In this document: positions 1-10,176 of the stretch, one piece after another | Position numbering within the stretch: position 1 is the stretch's first letter | Layout of the letters: each line of letters opens with the position of its first letter | Assembly (NCBI GenBank): GCA_030619985.1 | Contig: JAUXAI010000043.1 | Span: 1-10,318, forward strand | Length of the DNA: 10,318 nt | Direction: 5' to 3' | DNA from: a bacterium | Lineage (GTDB): Bacteria > UBP18 > UBA7526 | The notes under the pieces: generated by a model | Database searches by the model: none | The model's input: the letters and a program-made list of their open reading frames with translations, nothing else | Told to the model about the DNA's origin: nothing | Translations under genes and position numbers: made by a program

Positions 1-297
1 AGCCTCCCTGCGAATCTTTCTCATCTCCTCAATCTTTATGGAAGTTCCGGTCGGTTCAATTACTTTGACATCTGGATACTTATCAAGATCGATTCGGATA
101 CAATTTCTACATTTATCGCAAGAATCAATATCGCCTTTTTGGCAGTTCAGTGTTTTAGCTAGGGTCTTGGCAGTAAGTCCTTTGCCCACACCATCTGGCC
201 CAACAAAGAGATAGGCGTGGGATAGGCGATTATTCTTGATGGCGCTCTGAAGTATTTTAATCGCCCCTTCCTGCCCAATGATATCCTTAAAACTCAT
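1..297 (-). CDS. holB: DNA polymerase III delta-prime subunit, N-terminal part (cut by window edge)
   Basis: The reading frame starts at the ATG at 297 and runs off the window after 99 codons with no stop. It begins MSFKDIIGQE and has a Walker A-like GPDGVGKG at residues 33-40. Four cysteines (C52, C60, C63, C66) have the spacing of the zinc module of clamp-loader AAA+ subunits. SHAYLF at 26-31 is also typical. Delta-prime is the stator of the clamp loader, which places the sliding clamp on DNA at the replication fork. The gamma/tau subunit DnaX shares this fold, but the short N-terminus and the DIIGQ start fit delta-prime better. The ribosome binding site AAGGAAGG lies at 301-308. The upstream spacer contains DnaA boxes, one of them about 23 bases before the start codon, so DnaA control of this gene is possible. 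The family call is firm; the delta-prime versus tau choice is less certain because the C-terminus is missing. Confidence 0.85.
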   Translation of the reverse strand, partial: MSFKDIIGQEGAIKILQSAIKNNRLSHAYLFVGPDGVGKGLTAKTLAKTLNCQKGDIDSCDKCRNCIRIDLDKYPDVKVIEPTGTSIKIEEMRKIRREA

Positions 298-331
298 ATT
301 CCTTCCTTTGGGGATAACTTGTGGATAACTC

Positions 332-359
332 TTAATGCAAACTTATAAGTAGAGGTCAA
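332..359 (-). promoter_or_regulatory. Weak candidate promoter for holB
   Basis: On the minus strand TTGACC (354-359, five of six bases of the -35 consensus) is followed 16 bases later by CATTAA (332-337), a poor -10. Transcription would then start close to the DnaA box at 320-328, so DnaA bound there would cover the start point. The spacer contains a perfect 10-bp palindrome, ACTTATAAGT, at 341-350. The -10 match is weak, so this is only a suggestion. Confidence 0.25.
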
Positions 360-472
360 TTAGTCCACTTCAGGTCCAGTGGTCTGGATTACAGTCGATA
401 TTGGCTCTAAGTCCTTTATTCACAGGGGTTTAGAGGGATAGAATACTGATTTTATAGACTCCCTGGCTTCAG

Positions 473-498
473 AGTTTCTCAGAAACTTTTCGACGAAA
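473..498. repeat. Two adjacent dyads between DnaA boxes
   Basis: AGTTTCT (473-479) and AGAAACT (481-487) form a dyad around one central base. It is followed directly by TTTCG (488-492) and CGAAA (494-498) around a central A. The arms are too close for a good RNA hairpin at full length, so protein binding to DNA or repeat debris is more likely. A further small stem, TCCAG/CTGGA, lies at 375-388. Confidence 0.4.
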
Positions 499-523
499 GA
501 GGATGGACTGTGGATAACTTGGC

Positions 524-595
524 CCAAGCAGGCTACCAGCTACAAGCCTCGATCTGCATGTGACCTGTAGCCTGAAGCCTGGAGCCCTAATCCTC
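524..595. repeat. Degenerate AGCCT/GGCTAC short-period repeat
   Basis: On the minus strand the sequence just after the DUF2721 stop reads as repeated variants of CAGGCTTCAGGCTACAGG, ending with TAGCTGGTAGCC. The period is irregular, about 9 to 10 bases. The TAG stop of the DUF2721 gene (587-589) is inside or at the edge of this block. With the DnaA-box cluster it fills the gene-free stretch 300-586. Confidence 0.5.
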
Positions 596-1066
596 CATAA
601 GTTTTTCTTCTATCTGAATCTCCATGAGCGTTGTTCTATAGGATATCTGAATCTCCATAGCGGCAAAGATGGCCCCAACCAAGACCAGAAGCATCCCCAG
701 GCTAAACATAAGTATAGCAAGCATTATTATAGCCGATATCTTGAAGCTTAAGGCAATACTTATAGATGTTATGACGAAGAAAATAACACCTATGTAGAGA
801 CAGAGCGTAGCGTTCTTCTGGTATCTTCCCCTCCCTACCAAGATTTCAAGCTGCTTCTTGATGCTCTCCAGACGGGTTTTATCAATATTGGTCAAAACCT
901 CCTTGGCCAAGAAGGCCCTCTTTTCAGTATTGAACTGGTGGATGCGGTCGATGATTCTTCCATACTTATTCTGAAGGCTTAAGAGTAGAAGCCCACAGCA
1001 GGAGACCATAATGGCTGGGGTGAGGACTCCACCTATAATCCTGGTTACTTCTGTTATCTGGCCCAT
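587..1066 (-). CDS. DUF2721 family membrane protein
   Basis: This 159-residue protein starts MGQITEVTRI. A hydrophobic segment at about 9-31 (APxx-like core, SCCGLLLLSL) is followed by NKYGRIIDRIHQFN at 33-46. That pattern is typical of the DUF2721 family, whose members have a glycine-rich first helix followed by an N-R-Y-G-R-x-x-D-R motif. A charged, probably coiled segment fills 47-85. Two further membrane helices lie at about 88-108 and 112-137, and the tail is acidic. The start at 1066 is preferred over an in-frame TTG at 1090 because AGGAGG (1073-1078) lies six bases before it; the TTG lies inside a repeat and upstream of that site. The function is unknown. It stands apart from the moa operon, with its own possible promoter at 1167-1175. 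Confidence 0.8.
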   Translation of the reverse strand: MGQITEVTRIIGGVLTPAIMVSCCGLLLLSLQNKYGRIIDRIHQFNTEKRAFLAKEVLTNIDKTRLESIKKQLEILVGRGRYQKNATLCLYIGVIFFVITSISIALSFKISAIIMLAILMFSLGMLLVLVGAIFAAMEIQISYRTTLMEIQIEEKLMED

Positions 1067-1083
1067 TTCATTCCTCCTTGCAA

Positions 1084-1160
1084 CCGCCAAAACGCTAAAA
1101 GTCCGCCAAAGCGCAAAAAAACAATTTGGCGTCTTGGCGATTTTCTTTTGCGTCTTCGCG
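1084..1160. repeat. Short repeat family B (CGCCAAAGCGCA / TTGCGTCTTCGCG), imperfect dyad
   Basis: The left half has CGCCAAAACGCT (1085-1096) and CGCCAAAGCGCA (1104-1115). The right half has the reverse-complement type, TTTGGCGTCTTGGCG (1125-1139) and TTGCGTCTTCGCG (1148-1160). Together they form an imperfect inverted repeat of about 77 bp. The same motif family (TGCGTCTTTGCG) occurs inside moaA at 2641-2678. This block lies in the 5' leader of the DUF2721 gene. Confidence 0.65.
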
Positions 1161-1209: not shown

Positions 1210-1298
1210 AGCGGGTGACTCGGCAGATCTCTATGAGTGGGAGGATCCACACCGGGCGGCGGGGCCCGCGAAGAGAGAATGCCGAGGCAGGACCCGCT
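1210..1298. ncRNA. GC-rich three-way-junction element (candidate structured RNA, strand unknown)
   Basis: These 89 bases are about 67% G+C between A/T-rich flanks. Complementary blocks are nested. AGCGGGT (1210-1216) pairs with ACCCGCT (1292-1298). CTCGGCA (1219-1225) pairs with TGCCGAG (1280-1286). TCTCT (1228-1232) pairs with AGAGA (1272-1276). Inside are two hairpins: GTGG/CCAC (1237-1240/1247-1250, loop GAGGAT) and CGGGC/GCCCG (1253-1257/1264-1268, loop GGCGGG). The result is a long basal stem with two arms. The minus-strand version overlaps the mogA stop codon (1297-1299) and would be the 3' part of the moa transcript. There is no T run next to it, so it is not a standard terminator. I do not recognise the RNA family. 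A mobile palindromic repeat is the main alternative. Confidence 0.45.
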
Positions 1299-1782
1299 AT
1301 AAACAGTGGCTAGTGTTCCCTTTTAGTATTTCAATCCCGTGCTTCACTGCTGGTAGAATGACCTCAAGGTTTTCCTTAATTGCCTTGGGGCTTCCGGGCA
1401 GGTTAATGATGAGGCTCTTCTTTCGTGTTCCCACTATAGCCCGGGAGAGCATGCTAAAGGAGGTCTTCTCCAATCCCTTTATCCTCATAGCTTCCGCGAA
1501 ACCGGGCACTTCCTTTTCGATTACCTCTTTCGTTGCTTCTGGAGTAACATCTCTTGGCCCGATCCCTGTTCCTCCGCTGGTCAGGATCAGATCGAGCCTT
1601 AATTTATCTACCCAATTTATCAACTTCTCCTTAATCTGATCCTTCTCGTCTGGTATGATCTTGTACTCTGAGACCTCTGCTGGTAATTTTTTAACCATCT
1701 CCTTCATAATTGGACCACTCTCATCCTTCCTCTCTCCTCTCGATGCCTTATCACTAATTACCAGTATTCCTACTTTTATCAT
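1297..1782 (-). CDS. mogA: Molybdopterin adenylyltransferase (MogA/MoaB-type MoCF domain)
   Basis: This 161-residue single-domain protein activates molybdopterin with ATP, giving adenylyl-molybdopterin, the substrate for metal insertion by MoeA. It has VGILVISDKASRGERKDESG at the N-terminus, the TSGGTGIGPRD loop at about 68-78 followed by TPEAT, and NLPGSPKA at 127-134. These are the pterin- and nucleotide-binding motifs of the MogA/MoaB family, and SRGE plus DESG favour MogA. The length is normal. The ATG at 1782 follows moaC by 11 bases and has GGGAG at 1789-1793. It is the last gene of the moaA-moaC-mogA operon. The stop codon overlaps the GC-rich folded element that follows. Family assignment is strong; the exact MogA versus MoaB name is less certain, and MoaB can do the same reaction in some lineages. 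Confidence 0.9.
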   Translation of the reverse strand: MIKVGILVISDKASRGERKDESGPIMKEMVKKLPAEVSEYKIIPDEKDQIKEKLINWVDKLRLDLILTSGGTGIGPRDVTPEATKEVIEKEVPGFAEAMRIKGLEKTSFSMLSRAIVGTRKKSLIINLPGSPKAIKENLEVILPAVKHGIEILKGNTSHCL

Positions 1783-1793
1783 ACTCCACTCCC

Positions 1794-2267
1794 TTACTTT
1801 CGAATGAAGACGCCGCTCCTTCCTCCGGTCTTCTTTACTAACTTCACATCTGAGATGACCATCTCCCTGTCCACTGCCTTACACATATCGTAGATGGTTA
1901 AAGCGCTGATACTTGCTGCCATTAAAGCCTCCATTTCCACTCCGGTCCTTCCCAGACACTTCACCTTTGAAATTATTCCGATTCTATCCTTTCCTTTTAG
2001 ATTAAAAGTGATCTCTATATTGCTGATCTCCAAAGGATGGCACATAGGGATGAGTTCGCTGGTTCTCTTGGCAGCCATAATCCCGGCCACCTTGGCCACA
2101 GATAACACATCCCCCTTAGCCATTTTTCCCTCTTTAATTATTCTTAAGGTCTTGGGCTTCATAATGACATCCGCAGAGGCTATCGCTTCTCGTTTTGTAA
2201 TCCTCTTCCCACTGACATCCACCATCTTAGCCCTTCCTTTCCTATCAAAATGAGTAAGTTTTACCAT
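1794..2267 (-). CDS. moaC: Cyclic pyranopterin monophosphate synthase
   Basis: MoaC acts after MoaA and converts 3',8-cyclo-7,8-dihydro-GTP to cyclic pyranopterin monophosphate in the cytoplasm. The 157-residue protein has all the usual blocks: [16 protein letters not shown] (15-30), [20 protein letters not shown] (51-70), LIPMCHPL with H77, [10 protein letters not shown] (106-115), and [13 protein letters not shown] with D127 and K130, followed by the KTGGRSG end. K51, H77, D127 and K130 correspond to the active-site lysines, histidine and aspartate of the family. The length is normal. The start at 2267 lies one base after the moaA stop. Its ribosome binding site, AGGAGG (2273-2278), is inside the last codons of moaA, so translation of the two is likely coupled. 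Confidence 0.95.
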
Positions 2268-2268
2268 C

Positions 2269-3264
2269 TTAGCCTCCTATCTTAGACATAACCTGGTCAT
2301 TTCCTTTAATGAAATGCTTCTCCGGTTTATTCTTTAAAGCCTCTTCAAATAATTCCTTGATTTCTCTATATCCTGCGCCAGTCCGTAAGAGTGTCTTAAT
2401 ATCTATCCCATAATCAGAGAAGAGGCAGGGATATAACTTTCCATCCGCTGTTAACCTTAAGCGATTGCAGGTAGCGCAGAAATGCTCACTCATAGGCGTT
2501 ATAAATCCTATGGTTCCTAAAGATTTTTCAAATCTAAAAGACTTCGCTGGTCCAGCACCCCTCACCTCTGCTGGAATCAATTCTCCCAATTCTCTCAATC
2601 TTTCTCTAATGATAGAAGTGGGAACAAACTCGAAAGATGATTTTTGCGTCTTTGCGATTAATTTTGCGCCTTTGCGGTCACAAAAGGGCATATACTCAAT
2701 GAATCTAATGTGCAGTGGTCGATCCAGGCTCATCTTAGCAAAGTCCAGAACCTCATCATCATTTATTCCCTTCATGACTACAACATTTATCTTCACCGGC
2801 TCAAGGCCCCTTTTTAAGGCCTCTTCTATTCCATCCAGGACAAGAGATAATCTCCCTACTTTGGTAATGCGATGGAACTTATTGGCATCCAGACTATCCA
2901 GACTAATATTTATCCTTTGGAGTCCAGCATTCTTCAAATCCCGAACATAATCCCTTAAGAGAATCCCATTAGTGGTCATGCTCAGATCCTCGACGCCTTT
3001 AAGATTAGCAAGTATCTCTACTAAATAGACTACCCCTTTTCTCACTAAAGGTTCCCCCCCAGTAATCCTGACCTTATCTATCCCCCAATCTATGCTATAT
3101 CTTACTATCTCTTCTATTTCCTCAAACCTCAGGATATCCTCATGTCCTAAGGGTTTAATCCCCTCTGGAGGCATGCAGTAAATGCACCGCAGGTTGCATC
3201 TATCAGTTACAGAGACTCTCAAATAATTGATTCTACGCTGATACCTATCAATTAGTAGCTCCAT
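2269..3264 (-). CDS. moaA: GTP 3',8-cyclase (radical SAM molybdenum cofactor protein A)
   Basis: MoaA makes 3',8-cyclo-7,8-dihydro-GTP from GTP by radical SAM chemistry, the first step of cofactor synthesis. The 331-residue protein has the SAM cluster motif CNLRCIYC (C23, C27, C30), GGEP at 69-72, and the second, GTP-binding 4Fe-4S site with C263, C266 and C280. It ends in Gly-Gly, as needed for activity in this family. The ATG at 3264 has AAGGA at 3271-3275. An unusual basic block, roughly residues 197-208 ([12 protein letters not shown]), sits between the conserved RFIEYMPF strand and the [15 protein letters not shown] helix. Its DNA (2641-2678) matches the intergenic repeat family at 1084-1160, so it looks like an in-frame repeat insertion. 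All catalytic residues are intact. It is the first gene of moaA-moaC-mogA. Confidence 0.95.
2641..2678. repeat. Repeat family B copy inside moaA (in frame)
   Basis: The plus strand reads TTGCGTCTTTGCG (2644-2656), then ATTAATT, then TGCGCCTTTGCGG (2664-2676). This is the same GCGTCTTNGCG pattern as the spacer repeat at 1125-1160. About 36 to 39 bases, a multiple of three, lie between codons for conserved MoaA segments, so the frame is kept. Confidence 0.6.
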
Positions 3265-3284
3265 TTCGCATCCTTTTGTCTTGA

Positions 3285-3420
3285 TCTCTCACTTTCCCAC
3301 TTTCTCATCTGCTCATCTGCTTTATCTCTTGTCCCTCACCAATCCACCTAATCCAACCAATCCACCCAATTTACTGCCCGCCTTCCCACTTTCTCACTTT
3401 CTCACTTTCTCACTTTCCCA
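3285..3420. repeat. Pyrimidine-rich tandem repeats between the GH94 gene and moaA
   Basis: Four 8-bp units of ACTTTCTC (the last is ACTTTCCC) run 3388-3419, and related units lie at 3288-3312. Between them, about 3340-3372, is a different tandem of a 9-base CCAATCCAC-type unit. The minus strand is therefore almost pure purine at 3388-3419. The GH94 stop TGA (3410-3412) and its last two codons are made by the repeat. No promoter for moaA can be recognised in it. Confidence 0.75.
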
Positions 3421-5788
3421 TTACTACTCTTACCTTACGGCTTTTTCCATCCTTGTGGGGCTTAATCAGATTTCCTTCTATCTTCTTTCCATCTACATAG
3501 ATTTCTTTTACTCCATGCTCTACCCCTTTTGGATTCTCAATGAGAATCTCATAGGTCGCTCCCCTAAAGGGTCTTCTTATCTTTGCCTTCTTCCAAGAGG
3601 AAGGAAGATGGGGATCAATCCTTATTCCCTCCACATGCTTTCTAACACCCAGCATCCATTCAGTAACAATCATATAGACCCAGCCTACGGTGCCAGTAAG
3701 CCAGGAGAAGGCCCCTTCCCCAAAGAGATAGGGATGGCCAGGTCCCACCAGATATTCACTGAATACATAGGGCTCCATCTTATAGAGTTCGTAATCCTTC
3801 TGTTTATTGGGCATAATCTTCTTCAGTGTCTGCCAAGCTTTATTGGAATATCCCAACATAAGATAGGCTACGATAAGAAAGGTTGCTGCATGACAGAAGA
3901 TAGCGCCATTCTCCTTAGTTCCTGGAGCAAACATAGTCGCCCGACCCAATGAAGGCTCATATTGGCTATAGGTAGGATAGAATAAAGCCGGGCCATGGTC
4001 ACTATCCAGATATTTGTCTATTGACTCCAAGAGTAACTTCAACCTCTTCTTGGGAACAATATCTGAAAGGATAGCCCAGGACTGGGTATTTAAAAAGATC
4101 TTTCCCTCTTTATTCCTATTCGAACCAAAGGCCTCTCCAGTATCCTTAAATCCCCTGAGATACCACTCCCCATCCCAGGCATTCTCATTGATTATCTCAG
4201 TCATCTCCTCTGCCCGATCCTTTAACTTCTGGGACATCTTTTCATCCTCTATAAGAGCCGCTAAACGGGAGGCAACCTTAAGGGAACCCACAAAAGCCTG
4301 GGCAAGCATCACGCTTTCCCCCTTCCCCTTAATCCCACAGGCATCCAAACCATCATTCCAGTCTCCTCGGCCTATAAGGGGAAGACCGTGTGTCCCCCGA
4401 TGAGAATAGGTATAGTCCAATTCCCGATAGATATGTTCCATAACCGTTCCTTCTCCCTCTTTAGGACACCACTCATCCACTAAATAGGGGGCCTTCTCCC
4501 TTAAGATTCCGATATCCCCAGTCTCCCGAATGTACTCAGAAACGAGGTAGGCCAGCCAGATGGTCTGACCTTTCATGGGTGGAGCATCCCCTGGTCCCCA
4601 GAGGGAGTAATTCACAGCATTCGTCCCATCAGCACGCACCAAAGAGGCTAATTTCAAAATAGTCTCGCGCACCAATTGCGGTTCAAAAGCCGCCAAACTC
4701 TCAGCATCCTGTACTATTCCCCGGTATCCTCTTCCCGGACCCCCACCATGATAGTAGGAAGGGTTACGATTCCAGAGGTTATTAATATATAACTGATAAG
4801 GAAGCCAAGTATTTACTAAGGTATTGAAATCCTCATCTGGGGTCTCAATCTTAATCTTTGATGTCTTCTCTTTCCAATCCTTCCTTACGGCATCTAATTC
4901 CTTCCTCACCTGAATGACATCCTGATATTTATTTAGAGTTTCTTTTGCTTTCTCTTTACTTTCGGTCTGCCCCAGAATAAAGACAAACTCCTTTTCCTCC
5001 AATCCATCCAATCCAAAGTTATGCTGCAATACTCCTACCGCATCCTCTCCTTCACAATTAGAGTTCCCTAAAGCCTCGTTCTTCAGTCCATCGGGATTCG
5101 AGATATCATTATACCTTCCGGTGAAGGCTGTCTTAAGACACTCGTAGCCATCCACTTTAAAATTGGAGCCAAAGAAGACCAGCCCCTCAAAAGGTCTAAT
5201 ATCTCCTTCCTGCCACTGGGCAGACTTCCGCCCTAAGATGGCTTTTGCCTCACCATCCCACCAGACCTTATTATAAAGAGTAGTAACATTATGGATGCGC
5301 AACTCTAAAAAATATTGACCGATAAGCCATTCAATAAAGCCATAAAGATGGAATCTTCTCTTTCTTCTGGTATCATTCTTTATCCTCACCTTCCAGATCT
5401 CACAGGGCTCTTTCCGGGGAACAAAGTAGGTTATCTCTCCTGTCACCCCAAAGGCCTTAGTAGTAATGGTGGTATATCCTAAACCATGCCTTCCCTCATA
5501 GAAGTCCAGTTCCCTCCTCATAGGCTGCCAGTTCAAACTCCAATACTGCCCAGTGGTTAAGTCCTTCAGATAGACATACCTTCCCGGCCGGTCAGTCAAG
5601 AAATTACTTGGGCCCCATCTTAAAATTCTATTAATTCCGCAGTCCTTATAGAAACTATAGCCTCCCCCAGTATGAGAGACCAGGGCGCAGTAATCCTCAT
5701 TGGTCAGATAATTGATCCAGGGACGAGGCGTCGCCGGATTGGTTATCACATACTCCTGATTCTTCTCATCAAAATGTCCGTATTCCAT
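3410..5788 (-). CDS. GH94 glycoside phosphorylase (chitobiose/cellobiose phosphorylase-like)
   Basis: This 792-residue protein resembles GH94 enzymes, which split beta-linked disaccharides with phosphate to give a sugar 1-phosphate and a free sugar, probably in the cytoplasm (no signal peptide is seen). The N-terminal beta-sandwich part (MEYGHFDEKNQEYVITNP, SHTGGGYSFYKD, DRPGRYVYL) is close to diacetylchitobiose phosphorylase, as is the total length. In the barrel, GDWNDGLD (475-482) holds the general acid aspartate, ENGAIFCHA gives the phosphate-binding histidine (H633), and WLTGTVGW gives the threonine (T700). The motif usually written GYRD before xxQD here reads GYRG (354-357), so a sugar-binding acid of characterised relatives is missing. 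Substrate is therefore uncertain. The ATG at 5788 has AGGGGG at 5795-5800; an in-frame TTG at 5806 lies upstream of that site. It is an outlier among cofactor genes. Confidence 0.85.
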   Translation of the reverse strand: MEYGHFDEKNQEYVITNPATPRPWINYLTNEDYCALVSHTGGGYSFYKDCGINRILRWGPSNFLTDRPGRYVYLKDLTTGQYWSLNWQPMRRELDFYEGRHGLGYTTITTKAFGVTGEITYFVPRKEPCEIWKVRIKNDTRRKRRFHLYGFIEWLIGQYFLELRIHNVTTLYNKVWWDGEAKAILGRKSAQWQEGDIRPFEGLVFFGSNFKVDGYECLKTAFTGRYNDISNPDGLKNEALGNSNCEGEDAVGVLQHNFGLDGLEEKEFVFILGQTESKEKAKETLNKYQDVIQVRKELDAVRKDWKEKTSKIKIETPDEDFNTLVNTWLPYQLYINNLWNRNPSYYHGGGPGRGYRGIVQDAESLAAFEPQLVRETILKLASLVRADGTNAVNYSLWGPGDAPPMKGQTIWLAYLVSEYIRETGDIGILREKAPYLVDEWCPKEGEGTVMEHIYRELDYTYSHRGTHGLPLIGRGDWNDGLDACGIKGKGESVMLAQAFVGSLKVASRLAALIEDEKMSQKLKDRAEEMTEIINENAWDGEWYLRGFKDTGEAFGSNRNKEGKIFLNTQSWAILSDIVPKKRLKLLLESIDKYLDSDHGPALFYPTYSQYEPSLGRATMFAPGTKENGAIFCHAATFLIVAYLMLGYSNKAWQTLKKIMPNKQKDYELYKMEPYVFSEYLVGPGHPYLFGEGAFSWLTGTVGWVYMIVTEWMLGVRKHVEGIRIDPHLPSSWKKAKIRRPFRGATYEILIENPKGVEHGVKEIYVDGKKIEGNLIKPHKDGKSRKVRVVMGK

Positions 5789-5804
5789 CTTTGACCCCCT
5801 TATC

Positions 5805-5885
5805 AATTAACAATGAACATTGAGCATTGAACATTGAACAATTAAAAATTAAAAATTCAAAGTACAAATTGAAAAATGCAAAATT
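5805..5885. repeat. A/T-rich short-period repeat upstream of the GH94 gene
   Basis: Three copies of a 9-base unit like GAACATTGA / GAGCATTGA lie at about 5814-5839. They are followed by ATTAAAAATTAAAAATTC and related A-rich words to about 5885. This family is not seen elsewhere in the window. No coding signal on the plus strand is convincing. Confidence 0.6.
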
Positions 5886-5915
5886 AAATCAGTTGGTTTA
5901 TCAGGAAATTATTAT

Positions 5916-6218
5916 CTATCTAATGGCACCGAAAGCCTTAGATATTGCTTCCAAAGTTTCTATTGCTTTCTCTCTTGTTTTGTTTAGCGATTCCAAATTT
6001 TTGTTAATTTTTTCTTGTTCTTTTTCAGGTAGTTCTTCTCCTTTAGAAGTGTTCAATTCAATGGAGCGATAAATTAATTCCATTTGGGTAGTCACCATTA
6101 ATGTTGATTGTGATACTAAATTAAGGTTTGTAGATATTTTCATCACTTCTTTCATAGATTTATTGATCTTCATATTTACTATTGTTGCCGCTGCTATAAC
6201 TATAGTAGCTAACGCCAT
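5916..6218 (-). CDS. Small hypothetical membrane-anchored coiled-coil protein, with a UGA near its 5' end
   Basis: I do not recognise this 100-residue protein. It begins with a hydrophobic stretch, MALATIVIAAATIV. A helical Met/Ser/Thr-rich part follows, then a charged segment (EELPEKEQEKINKNLESLNKTREKAIETLE, here about 61-90) that looks like a coiled coil. The only good ribosome binding site, AAGGAGG (6258-6264), is 39 bases before this ATG but six bases before another ATG at 6251 in the same frame. That frame reads MGTFNCIVA, then TGA, then IMALATIV. If the TGA were TGG (Trp), the result would be one clean membrane helix. So the gene may carry a nonsense mutation, be restarted after a leader peptide, or contain a base error. 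Base composition is A/T-richer than its neighbours, suggesting an accessory gene. Confidence 0.5.
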   Translation of the reverse strand: MALATIVIAAATIVNMKINKSMKEVMKISTNLNLVSQSTLMVTTQMELIYRSIELNTSKGEELPEKEQEKINKNLESLNKTREKAIETLEAISKAFGAIR

Positions 6219-6221
6219 TAT

Positions 6222-6251
6222 TCACGCCACTATACAATTAAATGTTCCCAT
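6222..6251 (-). CDS. Nine-codon leader or broken start of the small membrane protein
   Basis: ATG at 6251 follows a near-perfect AAGGAGG with a six-base gap and encodes MGTFNCIVA before TGA (6222-6224). Three bases later, in the same frame, comes the ATG of the 100-residue protein. Such spacing would permit re-initiation. The hydrophobic end (FNCIVA) runs smoothly into the downstream helix, which favours a single ancestral gene with a TGG to TGA change over a true leader peptide. Confidence 0.4.
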   Translation of the reverse strand: MGTFNCIVA

Positions 6252-6273
6252 CGTGCACCTCCTTATTTATTCT

Positions 6274-6291
6274 CTAATTCGTGCGAATTAG
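6274..6291. repeat. Perfect 8-bp inverted repeat just upstream of the small gene's ribosome binding site
   Basis: CTAATTCG (6274-6281) and CGAATTAG (6284-6291) are separated by two bases. The dyad lies about ten bases upstream of AAGGAGG. It could be an operator, but it also resembles the ATTCGCG words of the neighbouring repeat, so it may be part of that element. Confidence 0.45.
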
Positions 6292-6299
6292 CCTATCTT

Positions 6300-6380
6300 T
6301 ATTCACGTTTTTTATTCGCGATGATTCGCGTTCTAATTATCTTTCGTTTTTGCTTTACAGTTCGCGTTAATTCGCGTTCT
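6300..6380. repeat. TTCGCG repeat family A, copy 1 (3' side of moeA)
   Basis: The block TTTTATTCGCGATGATTCGCG starts at 6310, and AGTTCGCGTTAATTCGCGT starts at 6359, 49 bases later. Copy 2 at 10100-10176 has the same two blocks in the same order and orientation, 46 bases apart. The moeA stop codon TAA (6380-6382) touches the end of this copy. Confidence 0.7.
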
Positions 6381-7594
6381 TAGTCCCAAAGCTCCACTTC
6401 CACCATCTGGCCCTTCTCTATTCCTTCGCTTAATCTAGGAATCTTTAACAGTCCGTCTGCCTTTATCAGGGAAACGATATTCGCTGAACCCCTATGCAAT
6501 GGAATGGCAATTAGCATTTCTTCTTTTTCTTCAAGTCTTACTCGAATATATTCTTCTCTTCCCGTGGAGGAGGTAACGGTTCTTACTAATCGGGCATTTA
6601 CTATCTTTGCCTTTTCTTTAGCATTCATCATGGCTAAGATAGTGGGCTTGACTATCTTTCTAAAGACGATCATAACGCTCACCGGATTTCCAGGAAGACC
6701 GAAGATAATTTTTTCTTTTACTTTTGCAATAATGGTCGGCTTTCCCGGCTTTATGGCTACCCCTTGAGTCAAGATCTTTCCTTTGGCCAAAGAACCCATT
6801 ACCTTTAGGGTAAGATCATAAGCACCAACTGAACTTCCTCCAGAGATGAGAACCATATCTGCTTTAGATAACGCCTCCTCTATCTTCTTCTTTAAAACTT
6901 TATAATTATCCTTAATAATCCCAAAAGAAATGGGCTCTCCTCCACACTTCTTAATCTGAGCAGCTAAGGAATAGGTATTCATATCTCTGATCTGTCCAGA
7001 TTCAGGCCTTCTCGAAGGACGAACCAGCTCATCTCCAGTAGGGATGATGGCTACCTTTGGCCTCTTGAATACCTTTATCTTAGTAATTCCCAATCCGCTT
7101 AAGGCACCGATATCCTGAGATCTTATTTTATGTCCCTTTGCTAATAGGACCTCTCCTTTTTTAATATCCTCTCCTCTTTTTGCCACGTTCTCACCAGGAG
7201 TTAAGGCCTTCCTTATCAAAATCTTTTCCCCTCTAACAGAGTCTACATATTCCAACATCTCAACGCTATCAGCCCCTTGAGGCATTATGGCACCAGTATT
7301 TATCTTTATCGCTTCACCTTTCTTGACCTCTTTCTCTGGAACCTCACCAATCTTTATTTCTCCAATTAAAGATAGAGAAACAGGTTTTTCTTCACTCGCC
7401 CCAAAGGTATCTTCTGCTTTAACCGCATAGCCATCCATCATGGCCTTATTGAATGGCGGCAGATCCTCCGGAGAAATAACATCAATTGCCACGAACCTAT
7501 CCAGACTCTCAGTGGCTTCTATAGTCTCAGTTTCCATAAGTCTTATCTTTCCCAATATCTTCTTTGCCTCATCAACCGTCTTTAGTTCTAACAT
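6380..7594 (-). CDS. moeA: Molybdopterin molybdenumtransferase (metal insertase)
   Basis: MoeA inserts molybdate or tungstate into adenylyl-molybdopterin, completing the basic cofactor. The 404-residue protein has the standard domains in order. PPFNKAMMDGYAV (46-58) contains the conserved active-site aspartate D54. A split beta domain follows, with GENVAKRGEDIKKGE at about 134-148. The MoCF domain has PTGDEL (185-190), SGGSSVGAYD (251-260) and GLPGNPVS (299-306). The C-terminal beta domain ends in VELWD. Length is normal. The ATG at 7594 is preceded by GAGG at 7600-7603. It lies 75 bases after tupC on the same strand, so in this genome it travels with the tungstate importer and not with moaA-moaC-mogA. 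Many anaerobes carry two MoeA copies, thought to differ in metal preference; the position beside tup suggests tungstate, by inference only. Confidence 0.95.
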   Translation of the reverse strand: MLELKTVDEAKKILGKIRLMETETIEATESLDRFVAIDVISPEDLPPFNKAMMDGYAVKAEDTFGASEEKPVSLSLIGEIKIGEVPEKEVKKGEAIKINTGAIMPQGADSVEMLEYVDSVRGEKILIRKALTPGENVAKRGEDIKKGEVLLAKGHKIRSQDIGALSGLGITKIKVFKRPKVAIIPTGDELVRPSRRPESGQIRDMNTYSLAAQIKKCGGEPISFGIIKDNYKVLKKKIEEALSKADMVLISGGSSVGAYDLTLKVMGSLAKGKILTQGVAIKPGKPTIIAKVKEKIIFGLPGNPVSVMIVFRKIVKPTILAMMNAKEKAKIVNARLVRTVTSSTGREEYIRVRLEEKEEMLIAIPLHRGSANIVSLIKADGLLKIPRLSEGIEKGQMVEVELWD

Positions 7595-7625
7595 CCCAAC
7601 CTCGTTCTACTTAGAATGGTGAGTC

Positions 7626-7670
7626 TTTATCTGCGATAATCTGCATCTATATCTGCGGTTATCTGCGTCT
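7626..7670. repeat. Tandem ATCTGCG repeat between tupC and moeA
   Basis: ATCTGCGATA, ATCTGCATCT, ATATCTGCGGTT and ATCTGCGTCT follow each other with a period of 10 to 12 bases. This fills most of the 75-base gap between the two genes. The tupC stop TGA (7670-7672) sits at its edge. A weak stem is possible, but no terminator is seen. Confidence 0.65.
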
Positions 7671-8401
7671 CAAAAGATCATCTTTCCTTTAATAAATCTT
7701 AAGATACGCCTATCTTTGGGACTGGTAAAGATCTCTTGAGCATTTCCTGATTCAATGATCCGGCCCTCAAATAGGAAGCTGGCCTCATGAGCGAGGCGCC
7801 TTGCCTGAAACATATTATGAGTAGCAATAACAATCGTTGTCTTGAATTCTCCATTAATGTATTTTATTAATTCCTCAATTATGGCCACATTCCTGGGATC
7901 GAGATCGGACGTGGGTTCATCCAGAAAGAGGATCTCTGGTTCCAGGACCATGGCTCTTGCTATAGCCACCCTCTGCTTCTCGCCTCCAGAGAGATCCCTT
8001 GCCCTTTTATGCTCATACCCTTTAAGGCCTACTACTTTTAAGGCCTTCTTTACTTTCTCAAGGATCGAGCTCCTATTCTCTCCCCTCACCTTCAATCCAT
8101 AGGCCACGTTCTCATAGACAGAGGTATTAAAAAGGACGGGCTTCTGGAAGACCAGAGTCATCCTGCGATGTAGGTTCAGGCGGTTATTCTCTCTTAGTGC
8201 TTTTCCATCGAAGTGGATCTCCCCAGAGGTTGGTTCTTCCAGGAGATTTAAGAGGCGCAGTAAGACGCTTTTTCCCACGCCACTCGGCCCTATTATAGCA
8301 TGTATTCTTCCCCTTTCCAATTGAAGATTTATCTCTTTTAGAACGGCCTCTCCATTATATTCCTTGGATAGATTGTGGGTTTGTATGGTATAGTTTTTCA
8401 T
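7670..8401 (-). CDS. tupC: Tungstate ABC transporter, ATP-binding protein
   Basis: This 243-residue cytoplasmic ATPase drives oxyanion import with TupB and TupA. Visible motifs are Walker A GPSGVGKS (38-45), Q-loop Q86 in LVFQKP, signature LSGGEKQR (137-144), Walker B LFLDEPTSDLD (158-168) and switch histidine H195. There is no C-terminal molybdate-binding (MOP/TOBE) domain of the ModC type, as expected for TupC, which ends soon after the ATPase core. The ATG at 8401 has AAGGTG at 8406-8411. That site lies inside one arm of a 13-bp inverted repeat whose partner is just after the tupB stop, so its accessibility may be controlled by folding. Specificity comes from the neighbouring TupA; the ATPase sequence alone would not separate tungstate from other anions. 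Confidence 0.9.
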   Translation of the reverse strand: MKNYTIQTHNLSKEYNGEAVLKEINLQLERGRIHAIIGPSGVGKSVLLRLLNLLEEPTSGEIHFDGKALRENNRLNLHRRMTLVFQKPVLFNTSVYENVAYGLKVRGENRSSILEKVKKALKVVGLKGYEHKRARDLSGGEKQRVAIARAMVLEPEILFLDEPTSDLDPRNVAIIEELIKYINGEFKTTIVIATHNMFQARRLAHEASFLFEGRIIESGNAQEIFTSPKDRRILRFIKGKMIF

Positions 8402-8539
8402 CCCGCACCTTTTTTATGATTCACCCCGCTCCTTCTTCTCCCCAAATCCCCGGCTGCGTGCAAGGAAGGGGCGAGGTTCACAAGGCTTTTTCTTTTGCTT
8501 TTTAAAAGATAAGTATAAAACACGATAAAAGGTGCGGGA
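8401..8539. repeat. Spacer bounded by 13-bp perfect inverted repeats between tupB and tupC
   Basis: TCCCGCACCTTTT (8401-8413) is the exact reverse complement of AAAAGGTGCGGGA (8527-8539). The repeats start two bases downstream of the tupB stop (8541) and end on the tupC start codon. In the tupBC transcript the second arm contains the tupC ribosome binding site AAGGTG, so pairing would hide it. The 113-base interior is C/T- and A/T-rich with no convincing open frame. A small non-autonomous mobile element is possible, but I see no clear target duplication. Confidence 0.6.
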
Positions 8540-8540
8540 C

Positions 8541-9233
8541 TCATTCTCTAATTCTCTGTAAATAATAAAGTCCGGCGTTAATTAGAAAAGCAACGGCCAA
8601 GAGTATAATCCCTAAGGCCAAAGCGAGCTCAAACCTTCCCTTCCCGGTCTCCAGGGCGATGGCCGTAGACATCACCCGGGTAGTTCCCTTTATATTCCCT
8701 CCCACAATCATGGCTGCTCCGATCTCAGTAATTACCCTCCCAAATCCAGCGATTAACGCTGCTAAAATGGCCACTCTCGCCTCTCTTAAGACAGTGAGCG
8801 TCGTCTGGACCTTTGTTGCCCCAAGGGAGATGGCACTCTTAGTAATAGCAGGGTCCACGCCTTTCACTGCTACTAAGGATAAAGCGCCGATAATGGGAGT
8901 GGCTAAGATGGTCTGAGCAGTAATCATGGCACCCGGGGTATAGAGAAGTCCCAACATACCCAGAGGACCCCTGTGGGATAGGAGGAGATAGACGAAGAGC
9001 CCCACCACTACTGTAGGAAGGGCAAAACAAGTATTGAGTATAGTAGTTATTATTCCCCTCCCTGGAAACCTGTGGAGTCCGACCAATGCCCCCAGGGGAA
9101 TGCCAAGGCATGAGGCCAATAAGACCGCAGTTCCTGAGATGCGCAGGGATAGGAATATAATAGTATAGGTTCCTCTGTCAAAACTAAAGAGTAAATGAAC
9201 AGCCTCTTTAAGTCCAGTCAATATGTAACCCAT
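8541..9233 (-). CDS. tupB: Tungstate ABC transporter, permease protein
   Basis: This 230-residue inner-membrane permease forms the channel for tungstate. It is strongly hydrophobic, with about five to six helices. The cytoplasmic EAA loop, which docks the ATPase, is seen around AISLGATKVQTTLTVLREAR, followed by the IAGFGRVITEIGAAMIVGGNI segment typical of Tup/Mod-type permeases. I place the start at 9233 (MGYILTGLKEAV) because GGGGA (9239-9243) is five bases before it and only one base separates it from the tupA stop (9235-9237). An upstream in-frame ATG at 9269 would add twelve hydrophilic residues and overlap tupA. The family contains members for molybdate and tungstate; the call as TupB rests on the adjacent TupA. 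Confidence 0.92.
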   Translation of the reverse strand: MGYILTGLKEAVHLLFSFDRGTYTIIFLSLRISGTAVLLASCLGIPLGALVGLHRFPGRGIITTILNTCFALPTVVVGLFVYLLLSHRGPLGMLGLLYTPGAMITAQTILATPIIGALSLVAVKGVDPAITKSAISLGATKVQTTLTVLREARVAILAALIAGFGRVITEIGAAMIVGGNIKGTTRVMSTAIALETGKGRFELALALGIILLAVAFLINAGLYYLQRIRE

Positions 9234-9234
9234 A

Positions 9235-10101
9235 CTATTCCCCGATTTCTGAGCAGGGTGAAGAAACAAGGTTCTTCGCCGAAGGCGAAGACGTCCTTAT
9301 AAGATGGAAGAGTGGCTCTCCGAACTCTTCCTTGCCAAATTCCCTTATTATCTTCTGTCCTTTATCTGAAATCAAAAAGTTGATAAATGCTGTACCCCTT
9401 TTATAAGTAATATAAGCATACTTTTTAGAGTTAACTAATATTATGCTATACGGATTATGTAATAGCTTATTTTCTTCGTAAAGAATATCTAAAAAACTGT
9501 TTTCTTTATAGGACAAATAGGTAGCACGATCTGTTAGACAATAGGCTCTCTTTTGGCTCGCGATAACTAAAGTGACTCCCATCCCCTGTCCGGTCTCTTG
9601 ATACCACTCGCCCTCTGGAATTAAACCTGTTCTTTCCCAGAGTTGTCTTTCTCTCTTATGTGTTCCAGAATCATCCCCCCGGGAGATGAAGAGCACTTCC
9701 TTGTGAGCGATAGCAGATAAAGCGGATATTACTCCACTCATTCCCTTAATCTTCGCTGGATCATCCTCTGGCCCAACAATGACGAAGTCATTATACATAA
9801 TGTTCTTTCTATTTACCCCATACCCTTCCCTCACGAACTCCTCCTCTGCCTCCGGATCATGGACTAGAATGAGATCGCAATCCCCATTCTTTGCCAATCG
9901 GATGGCCTTTCCTGTTCCACAGGCGATAACGTCCACCTTCACTTTTGCCTCTTTCTCAAAGGCAGGGATCAGGACATCGAGGAGTCCAGAGTTCTCTACA
10001 CTTGTAGTGGTAGCCAGAATAAGATGAAGAACCTTTCGCTTACAGCCCAGCGTAAAGACCACAACTATTATAAATCCCAAAAGGAATATTTTTTTATTCA
10101 T
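9235..10101 (-). CDS. tupA: Tungstate-binding lipoprotein of the ABC importer
   Basis: TupA captures tungstate outside the membrane and delivers it to TupB. The 288-residue protein has a lipoprotein signal (MNKKIFLLGFIIVVVFTLGC, lipid-attached C20). TupA hallmarks are TTTSVENSGLLDVL (31-44), ACGTGKAIRLAKNGDCD (60-76), VHDPEAEEEFV, YGVNRKNIMYNDFVIVGP, the SRGDDSGTH loop (140-148), and LTDRATYL (189-196). The TTTS and RGDDSGTH loops are expected to hold the oxyanion. The start at 10101 is chosen over a GTG two codons earlier because AAGAG lies five bases before it, though this site is weak. The last 20 or so residues after FGEPLF are unlike the usual short family end and are encoded across a palindrome (9273-9291), suggesting a repeat-driven extension. 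A structured leader lies upstream. Confidence 0.93.
   Translation of the reverse strand: MNKKIFLLGFIIVVVFTLGCKRKVLHLILATTTSVENSGLLDVLIPAFEKEAKVKVDVIACGTGKAIRLAKNGDCDLILVHDPEAEEEFVREGYGVNRKNIMYNDFVIVGPEDDPAKIKGMSGVISALSAIAHKEVLFISRGDDSGTHKRERQLWERTGLIPEGEWYQETGQGMGVTLVIASQKRAYCLTDRATYLSYKENSFLDILYEENKLLHNPYSIILVNSKKYAYITYKRGTAFINFLISDKGQKIIREFGKEEFGEPLFHLIRTSSPSAKNLVSSPCSEIGE
9273..9291. repeat. Palindrome TCTTCGCC-GAA-GGCGAAGA within the 3' end of tupA
   Basis: The arms TCTTCGCC (9273-9280) and GGCGAAGA (9284-9291) are perfect and separated by GAA. The dyad encodes part of SSPSAKN in the TupA tail. On RNA it would make a strong short hairpin about 35 bases before the stop and the tupB start. 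Confidence 0.6.
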
Positions 10102-10176
10102 TCGCACTCTTTTATTCGCGACTATTCGCGTTTGTTTATTGCGTTCCTGCCCAATAGTTCGCGTTGATTCGCGTCA
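10100..10176. repeat. TTCGCG repeat family A, copy 2 (5' side of tupA)
   Basis: TTTTATTCGCGACTATTCGCG starts at 10110 and AGTTCGCGTTGATTCGCGT at 10156. These blocks match copy 1 at 6300-6380 in order, orientation and near-spacing. The copy covers the tupA start codon and its leader and reaches almost to the terminator-like hairpin. Confidence 0.7.

Follow-up and report, generated by a model that had tools for sequence, protein, structure and literature searches.

A conserved, phased cluster of DnaA boxes upstream of holB: a candidate non-origin DnaA-binding element in an uncultured bacterial lineage

The stretch of DNA analysed (hereafter the window) is a whole contig of 10,318 bp (C45) belonging to a 1.25-Mb draft genome of 91 contigs that is 83.65% complete (G000). 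The beginning of holB, the gene for DNA polymerase III delta-prime, lies at one end of the window and runs off the contig at its 3′-end (Table 1); the full ORF codes for 354 aa in the related genome G002. The genes following holB are ricT, mutM, metG and a gene for a UvrD/PcrA-type helicase. On the other side of the spacer upstream of holB the window contains a gene for a DUF2721 membrane protein, an arrangement found in G000 only. The contigs of the relatives lack this gene and have moaB in its place. On the far side of the spacer element described below, moaB is present in at least four of five genomes; in G000 the DUF2721 gene separates moaB from the element, which stays with holB. The rest of the window (1297–10107, minus strand) contains the molybdopterin genes moaB (recognised with Pfam), moaC, moaA and moeA (assigned by eye), as well as a tungstate/molybdate-type ABC transporter (also by eye). 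These genes are interrupted by one coding for a 798-aa glycoside-phosphorylase-like protein (3410–5806).

The spacer upstream of holB contains three exact copies of the DnaA box TTATNCACA (boxes A, B and C in Table 1) plus a near-box, TTATCCCCA (box D). A first-pass annotation of the window had located three exact nonamers and one near-box within a single 209-bp stretch, and had noticed no other exact box; both statements proved correct, no exact box beyond these three being present in the 10,318 bp. Along the holB strand the order of the features is A, B (reversed), C, D, the ribosome-binding stretch and the start of holB at position 297. Boxes C and D form a tandem with a 2-bp gap and an 11-bp period. 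The distance from A to B is 93 bp and that from B to C is 96 bp, both in the window and in G002. Boxes A and C, which share the same orientation, are 189 bp apart, equivalent to 18.0 helical turns at 10.5 bp per turn, with B midway. The whole G000 assembly contains 25 exact boxes, compared with 13 matches to a reversed control pattern, and a scan of it showed the cluster before holB to be its only cluster of exact boxes.

Table 1. Coordinates of the features at the holB locus (positions in the window) and of the probable origin regions of related genomes (positions in the regions named)
Feature	Position	Strand	Description
holB (DNA polymerase III delta-prime), gene start	1..297	-	Pfam PF13177, E 1.7e-25; 3′-end off contig
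Gap from box D to holB start	298..308	-	11 bp; contains the purine-rich ribosome-binding site AAAGGAAGG
Conserved element	309..524	-	216 bp, GGCCA plus box A through box D, reading towards holB; five-genome alignment
Box D	309..317	-	TTATCCCCA; TTATCCACT in G003
Box C	320..328	-	TTATCCACA, invariant in 5/5 genomes
Box B	416..424	+	TTATTCACA, orientation opposite to A and C; TTATTTACA in G003, TTATTCATA in G004/G005
Box A	509..517	-	TTATCCACA, invariant in 5/5 genomes
DUF2721 membrane protein gene	587..1090	-	Pfam PF11026; beside the element in G000 only
Probable origin region in relatives	L122 9522-11462; L123 11301-13681; L124 1522-4000; L125 7804-8340		dnaA-flanking boxes, TTATCCCCA-type variants, AT-rich stretch, skew switch

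G000 was compared with five other members of its GTDB family (G001–G005). A holB gene was found in five of the six genomes, and each time the element lay immediately before it; the sixth, G001 (75% complete), gave no holB-level match and no match to the element. The alignment of these five genomes (G000, G002, G003, G004 and G005), which represent three genera, showed exact boxes upstream of holB to be present also in G002 (three boxes), G003, G004 and G005; when one mismatch was allowed, the four boxes appeared in the same order in every genome. The pairwise identity of the element was 0.74–0.87, close to that of the first 297 nt of holB (0.78–0.97), and 136 of the 232 alignment columns were invariant. 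Between the boxes, conservation was only slightly lower than in the boxes themselves and nearly on a par with coding DNA. Conservation stopped at the outer boxes, and the sequences beyond box A could not generally be aligned. The boxes, their spacing and the intervening DNA are thus kept in relatives, and the first-pass annotation's proviso that the boxes might prove unconserved there does not apply.

The spacing of the boxes is otherwise fixed at 93/96 bp, the sole sizeable indel in the alignment being the loss of a net 11 bp, about one helical turn, between boxes B and C in G003. The B–C distance in this genome is 85 bp instead of 96 bp, and the A–C distance 178 bp instead of 189 bp, i.e. 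16.95 turns rather than the 18.0 seen elsewhere (at 10.5 bp per turn). By contrast, the spacing of the boxes upstream of dnaA varied strongly among genomes. The start of box D lies 20–96 bp before holB, depending on the genome, and in the relatives the gap between the two exceeds that of G000 by about 76 bp at most. The flanks of the element (window positions 525–588; L117, L119 and L121) contain unrelated dispersed short repeats that differ between genomes; on the upstream side one repeat family is common to G000 and G005, and another to G002 and G004. The element was absent from 92 genomes of other families, and a search of a plasmid collection gave no match. A 36-bp match in contig C36 of G002 was discarded as a related element; it falls within an apparent rsmG gene and is missing from the list of exact boxes. 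The best reading of these comparisons is that the element is a lineage-specific, non-origin candidate for DnaA binding.

The possibility of a wider DnaA regulon was explored in 74 regions around other exact boxes from G000, G001, G002, G003 and G004, and was rejected: nearly all the boxes common to different genomes sit in ORFs or dispersed repeats. The exception was a single TTATACACA located before an ORF and common to G000 and G002, two genomes of the same genus only. None of the 74 regions contained another intergenic box cluster outside dnaA that was conserved between genomes, and no DnaA boxes were found within 400 bp upstream of the holB/dnaX-type matches L006–L030. A repeat family containing TTATGCACA(GATTA) was observed near position 601 of L132, L135, L145, L149, L157, L165 and L167. 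Since this family supplies many of the isolated exact matches in these genomes, raw box counts overstate the number of DnaA sites.

The best explanation, and one we regard as somewhat probable, is that the element has a regulatory function: it would bind DnaA ahead of holB without being an origin. Wherever holB was found, in five genomes, the boxes are conserved in the 5′ region of that gene, and the box D variant TTATCCCCA recurs repeatedly in the spacer of the lineage's own dnaA–dnaN origin. The DnaA protein sequences of the relatives carry GGRDHTTV, a canonical signature for recognition of the DnaA box. Control of holB is favoured by the closeness of the element to the ribosome-binding site. 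E. coli DnaA is a regulator of replication genes and prefers boxes paired at a distance of 2–3 bp (PMC11317965), an arrangement that the C/D pair matches. The element is most likely an operator through which DnaA controls holB and the genes that follow, and possibly also a DnaA sink. The first-pass annotation had offered both an operator and a titration site as readings; the two survive, and are strengthened by the finding that five genomes keep the boxes, their spacing and the DNA in between.

According to this operator model, DnaA would load at all four boxes, of which C and D form a tandem pair. Boxes A and C are helically in phase, a relation left intact by the only length change, and the bound sites would join into a single looped DnaA–DNA complex on the 5′ region of holB. 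This complex would alter the transcription of holB, ricT, mutM, metG and the UvrD/PcrA-type helicase gene, and the supply of clamp loader would follow the level of free or ATP-bound DnaA. Repression is our first guess as to the sign of this control, being likelier than activation, because boxes C and D lie just before the ribosome-binding site. No convincing sigma-70 promoter was detected on the holB strand of the element, a consensus scan performing no better on it than on shuffled sequences. The constant placement upstream of holB may merely reflect conserved synteny, given that at least four of the five genomes have moaB across the element.

DnaA bound at the element would be withheld from oriC, making a modest titration effect also likely. 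The main rival to the operator reading takes this further: like the DnaA-box clusters of B. subtilis, or datA or DARS of E. coli, the element would be a DnaA sink or a locus that modulates DnaA activity, retaining DnaA or altering its nucleotide state and so delaying or timing initiation at oriC, with holB an incidental neighbour. The two roles are compatible, and the element may have both, although the rival taken by itself is possible rather than probable. The conservation of the whole block and its fixed, phased spacing would suit a higher-order complex, the element is the sole conserved intergenic cluster apart from that at dnaA, and precedents outside oriC have been reviewed (PMC5295017, PMC13220808). 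Like the DnaA-box clusters known outside oriC (DBCs), the element groups a number of exact boxes in a short non-coding stretch that is not at the origin. A sink consisting of only four boxes is less expected, however, as is one that always lies at holB, with box D in G000 almost touching the ribosome-binding site.

The near-equal conservation of the DNA between the boxes is not explained by an operator alone, and would suit a structured leader RNA, or some other cis element of holB conserved through an RNA or another protein, in which the boxes were secondary. Compensatory double changes in short dyads point in the same direction: these amounted to 12 cells, compared with a mean of 2.9 in column shuffles, none of 300 shuffles reaching 12. 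They are suggestive only, since the structure was picked on the same five sequences. The dyads concerned occupy alignment columns 49–63, 101–131 and 149–161 (window 309–524), one of them being centred on box B, and could be either RNA hairpins or protein-binding palindromes. Against a leader RNA, the window sequence folded no better than shuffled sequences (single-sequence z = 0.49), the alignment energy was unremarkable (z = -1.2, 11% of the shuffles in a five-way column shuffle being as stable), the RNAalifold covariation term was unfavourable, no known RNA family was matched in Rfam, and the outer edges of the element coincide with DnaA boxes. This alternative is therefore unlikely. A small gene in the spacer was also considered and rejected, no reading frame being consistently open across the alignment. 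We would put forward, tentatively, a fuller version of the operator reading. In it a dedicated DnaA-responsive element, by means of a phased DnaA loop held at three points, would make the supply of delta-prime depend on how active the initiator is; selection would act on the inter-box DNA too, perhaps because it serves a second architectural protein or a leader RNA.

The first-pass annotation had also suggested that the cluster could be oriC at an unusual place. A box cluster with conserved spacing might indeed indicate a chromosomal origin, or a second one, and the G000 assembly lacks both dnaA and dnaN, so that a conventional origin cannot be seen there; the origin was therefore examined in the relatives. 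In these, boxes were present upstream of dnaA, and the dnaA–dnaN spacer contained four exact or one-mismatch boxes, often TTATCCCCA, with an AT-rich stretch adjoining dnaN that peaked at 80–88%. The same dnaA–dnaN array was found in G001 and G002, which belong to the same genus as G000. In G003, G004 and G005 the GC skew was negative through the dnaA–dnaN side and positive upstream of dnaA. A box cluster thus lies at dnaA where the skew turns, which is one of the two findings that the first-pass annotation had named as counting against its proposal; the arrangement resembles the bipartite origin of B. subtilis (PMC5295017). Around the holB element (24 kb covered in G002, 31 kb in G005) the skew did not turn: to either side it remained positive for the holB strand, except at contig ends. 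The element also lacks an AT-rich unwinding stretch, its 40-bp windows being 45–72% AT. Of the features that the first-pass annotation had noted after the plus-strand box (box B), the GGGG reads NGGG in relatives, the A/T-rich run is not notably so, at about 57–72% AT compared with the peaks beside dnaN, and the TAG/GAT triplets do not look, by eye, like a conserved trio array (box/spacer/DnaA-trio array, BUS): G003 reads GAGGGGGGAATAC at this point and does not keep them. The absence of a skew switch at holB, together with the dnaA/dnaN origin found in relatives, leads us to reject the origin reading: the holB element is not oriC, and it is very improbable that it acts as a chromosomal or second origin.

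Contig breaks were observed inside dnaA in G001 (end of C92) and in the dnaA–dnaN spacer in G002 (start of C31); these, and the absence of dnaA and dnaN from G000, indicate that the origin region assembles poorly in this genus. All six genomes but G005, in which none was found, have two perfect parS-like TTCCACGTGGAA sequences each, located on other contigs (G000:C79 9207 and 10368; G002:C36 11184 and 12102, for example). Those of G002 surround an apparent parA–rsmG region.

Finally, that the boxes are chance matches in an ordinary spacer is scarcely credible: the window contains only slightly more one-mismatch matches than expected (13 observed, 8.1 expected), but the probability of three of 25 exact boxes falling within 189 bp was 0.0002 in a simulation of uniform placement, and the conservation of the same boxes with the same spacing in five genomes already refutes this reading.

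DnaA-box clusters outside oriC are already known. The nearest experimental parallel is the 5′ region of dnaX-ebfC in Borrelia burgdorferi, which DnaA binds and activates, the activation having been observed in vitro (PMC9879097). Its DnaA site(s) likewise lie outside oriC and immediately before a clamp-loader gene, but the gene is dnaX (Borrelia lacks holB), and instead of the conserved, phased array of four boxes described here there is one predicted box, together with an unrelated region that DnaA binds. In B. subtilis, intergenic clusters of exact boxes likewise lie outside a dnaA–dnaN-type origin (Okumura 2012, as summarised in PMC5295017). According to that summary, these are six clusters near oriC that are known by their deletion phenotype, whereas a single cluster is described here; none at holB is mentioned in the text consulted. 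The datA, DARS1 and DARS2 loci of E. coli are also short, conserved, non-coding and equipped with several boxes in a fixed geometry; those loci act with IHF/Fis on the nucleotide state of DnaA. The double boxes of E. coli nrdA, mioC and purH (PMC11317965) consist of a strong and a weak box in tandem, 2–3 bp apart, upstream of a gene, and are comparable to the C/D pair with its 2-bp gap; they differ in their target genes, and the element adds boxes B and A at distances of 96 and 189 bp.

No earlier report of holB as a DnaA target was found in the literature searched, and this target looks new. The analysis also shows that a box cluster in an assembly without dnaA can be mistaken for an origin. 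The element provides a compact, testable candidate for a DnaA complex from a deep uncultured lineage. If DnaA does control holB, the initiator would directly determine how much of a replisome-loading component is supplied; in the literature searched, such a connection between initiator and clamp loader has so far been reported only for dnaX in Borrelia.
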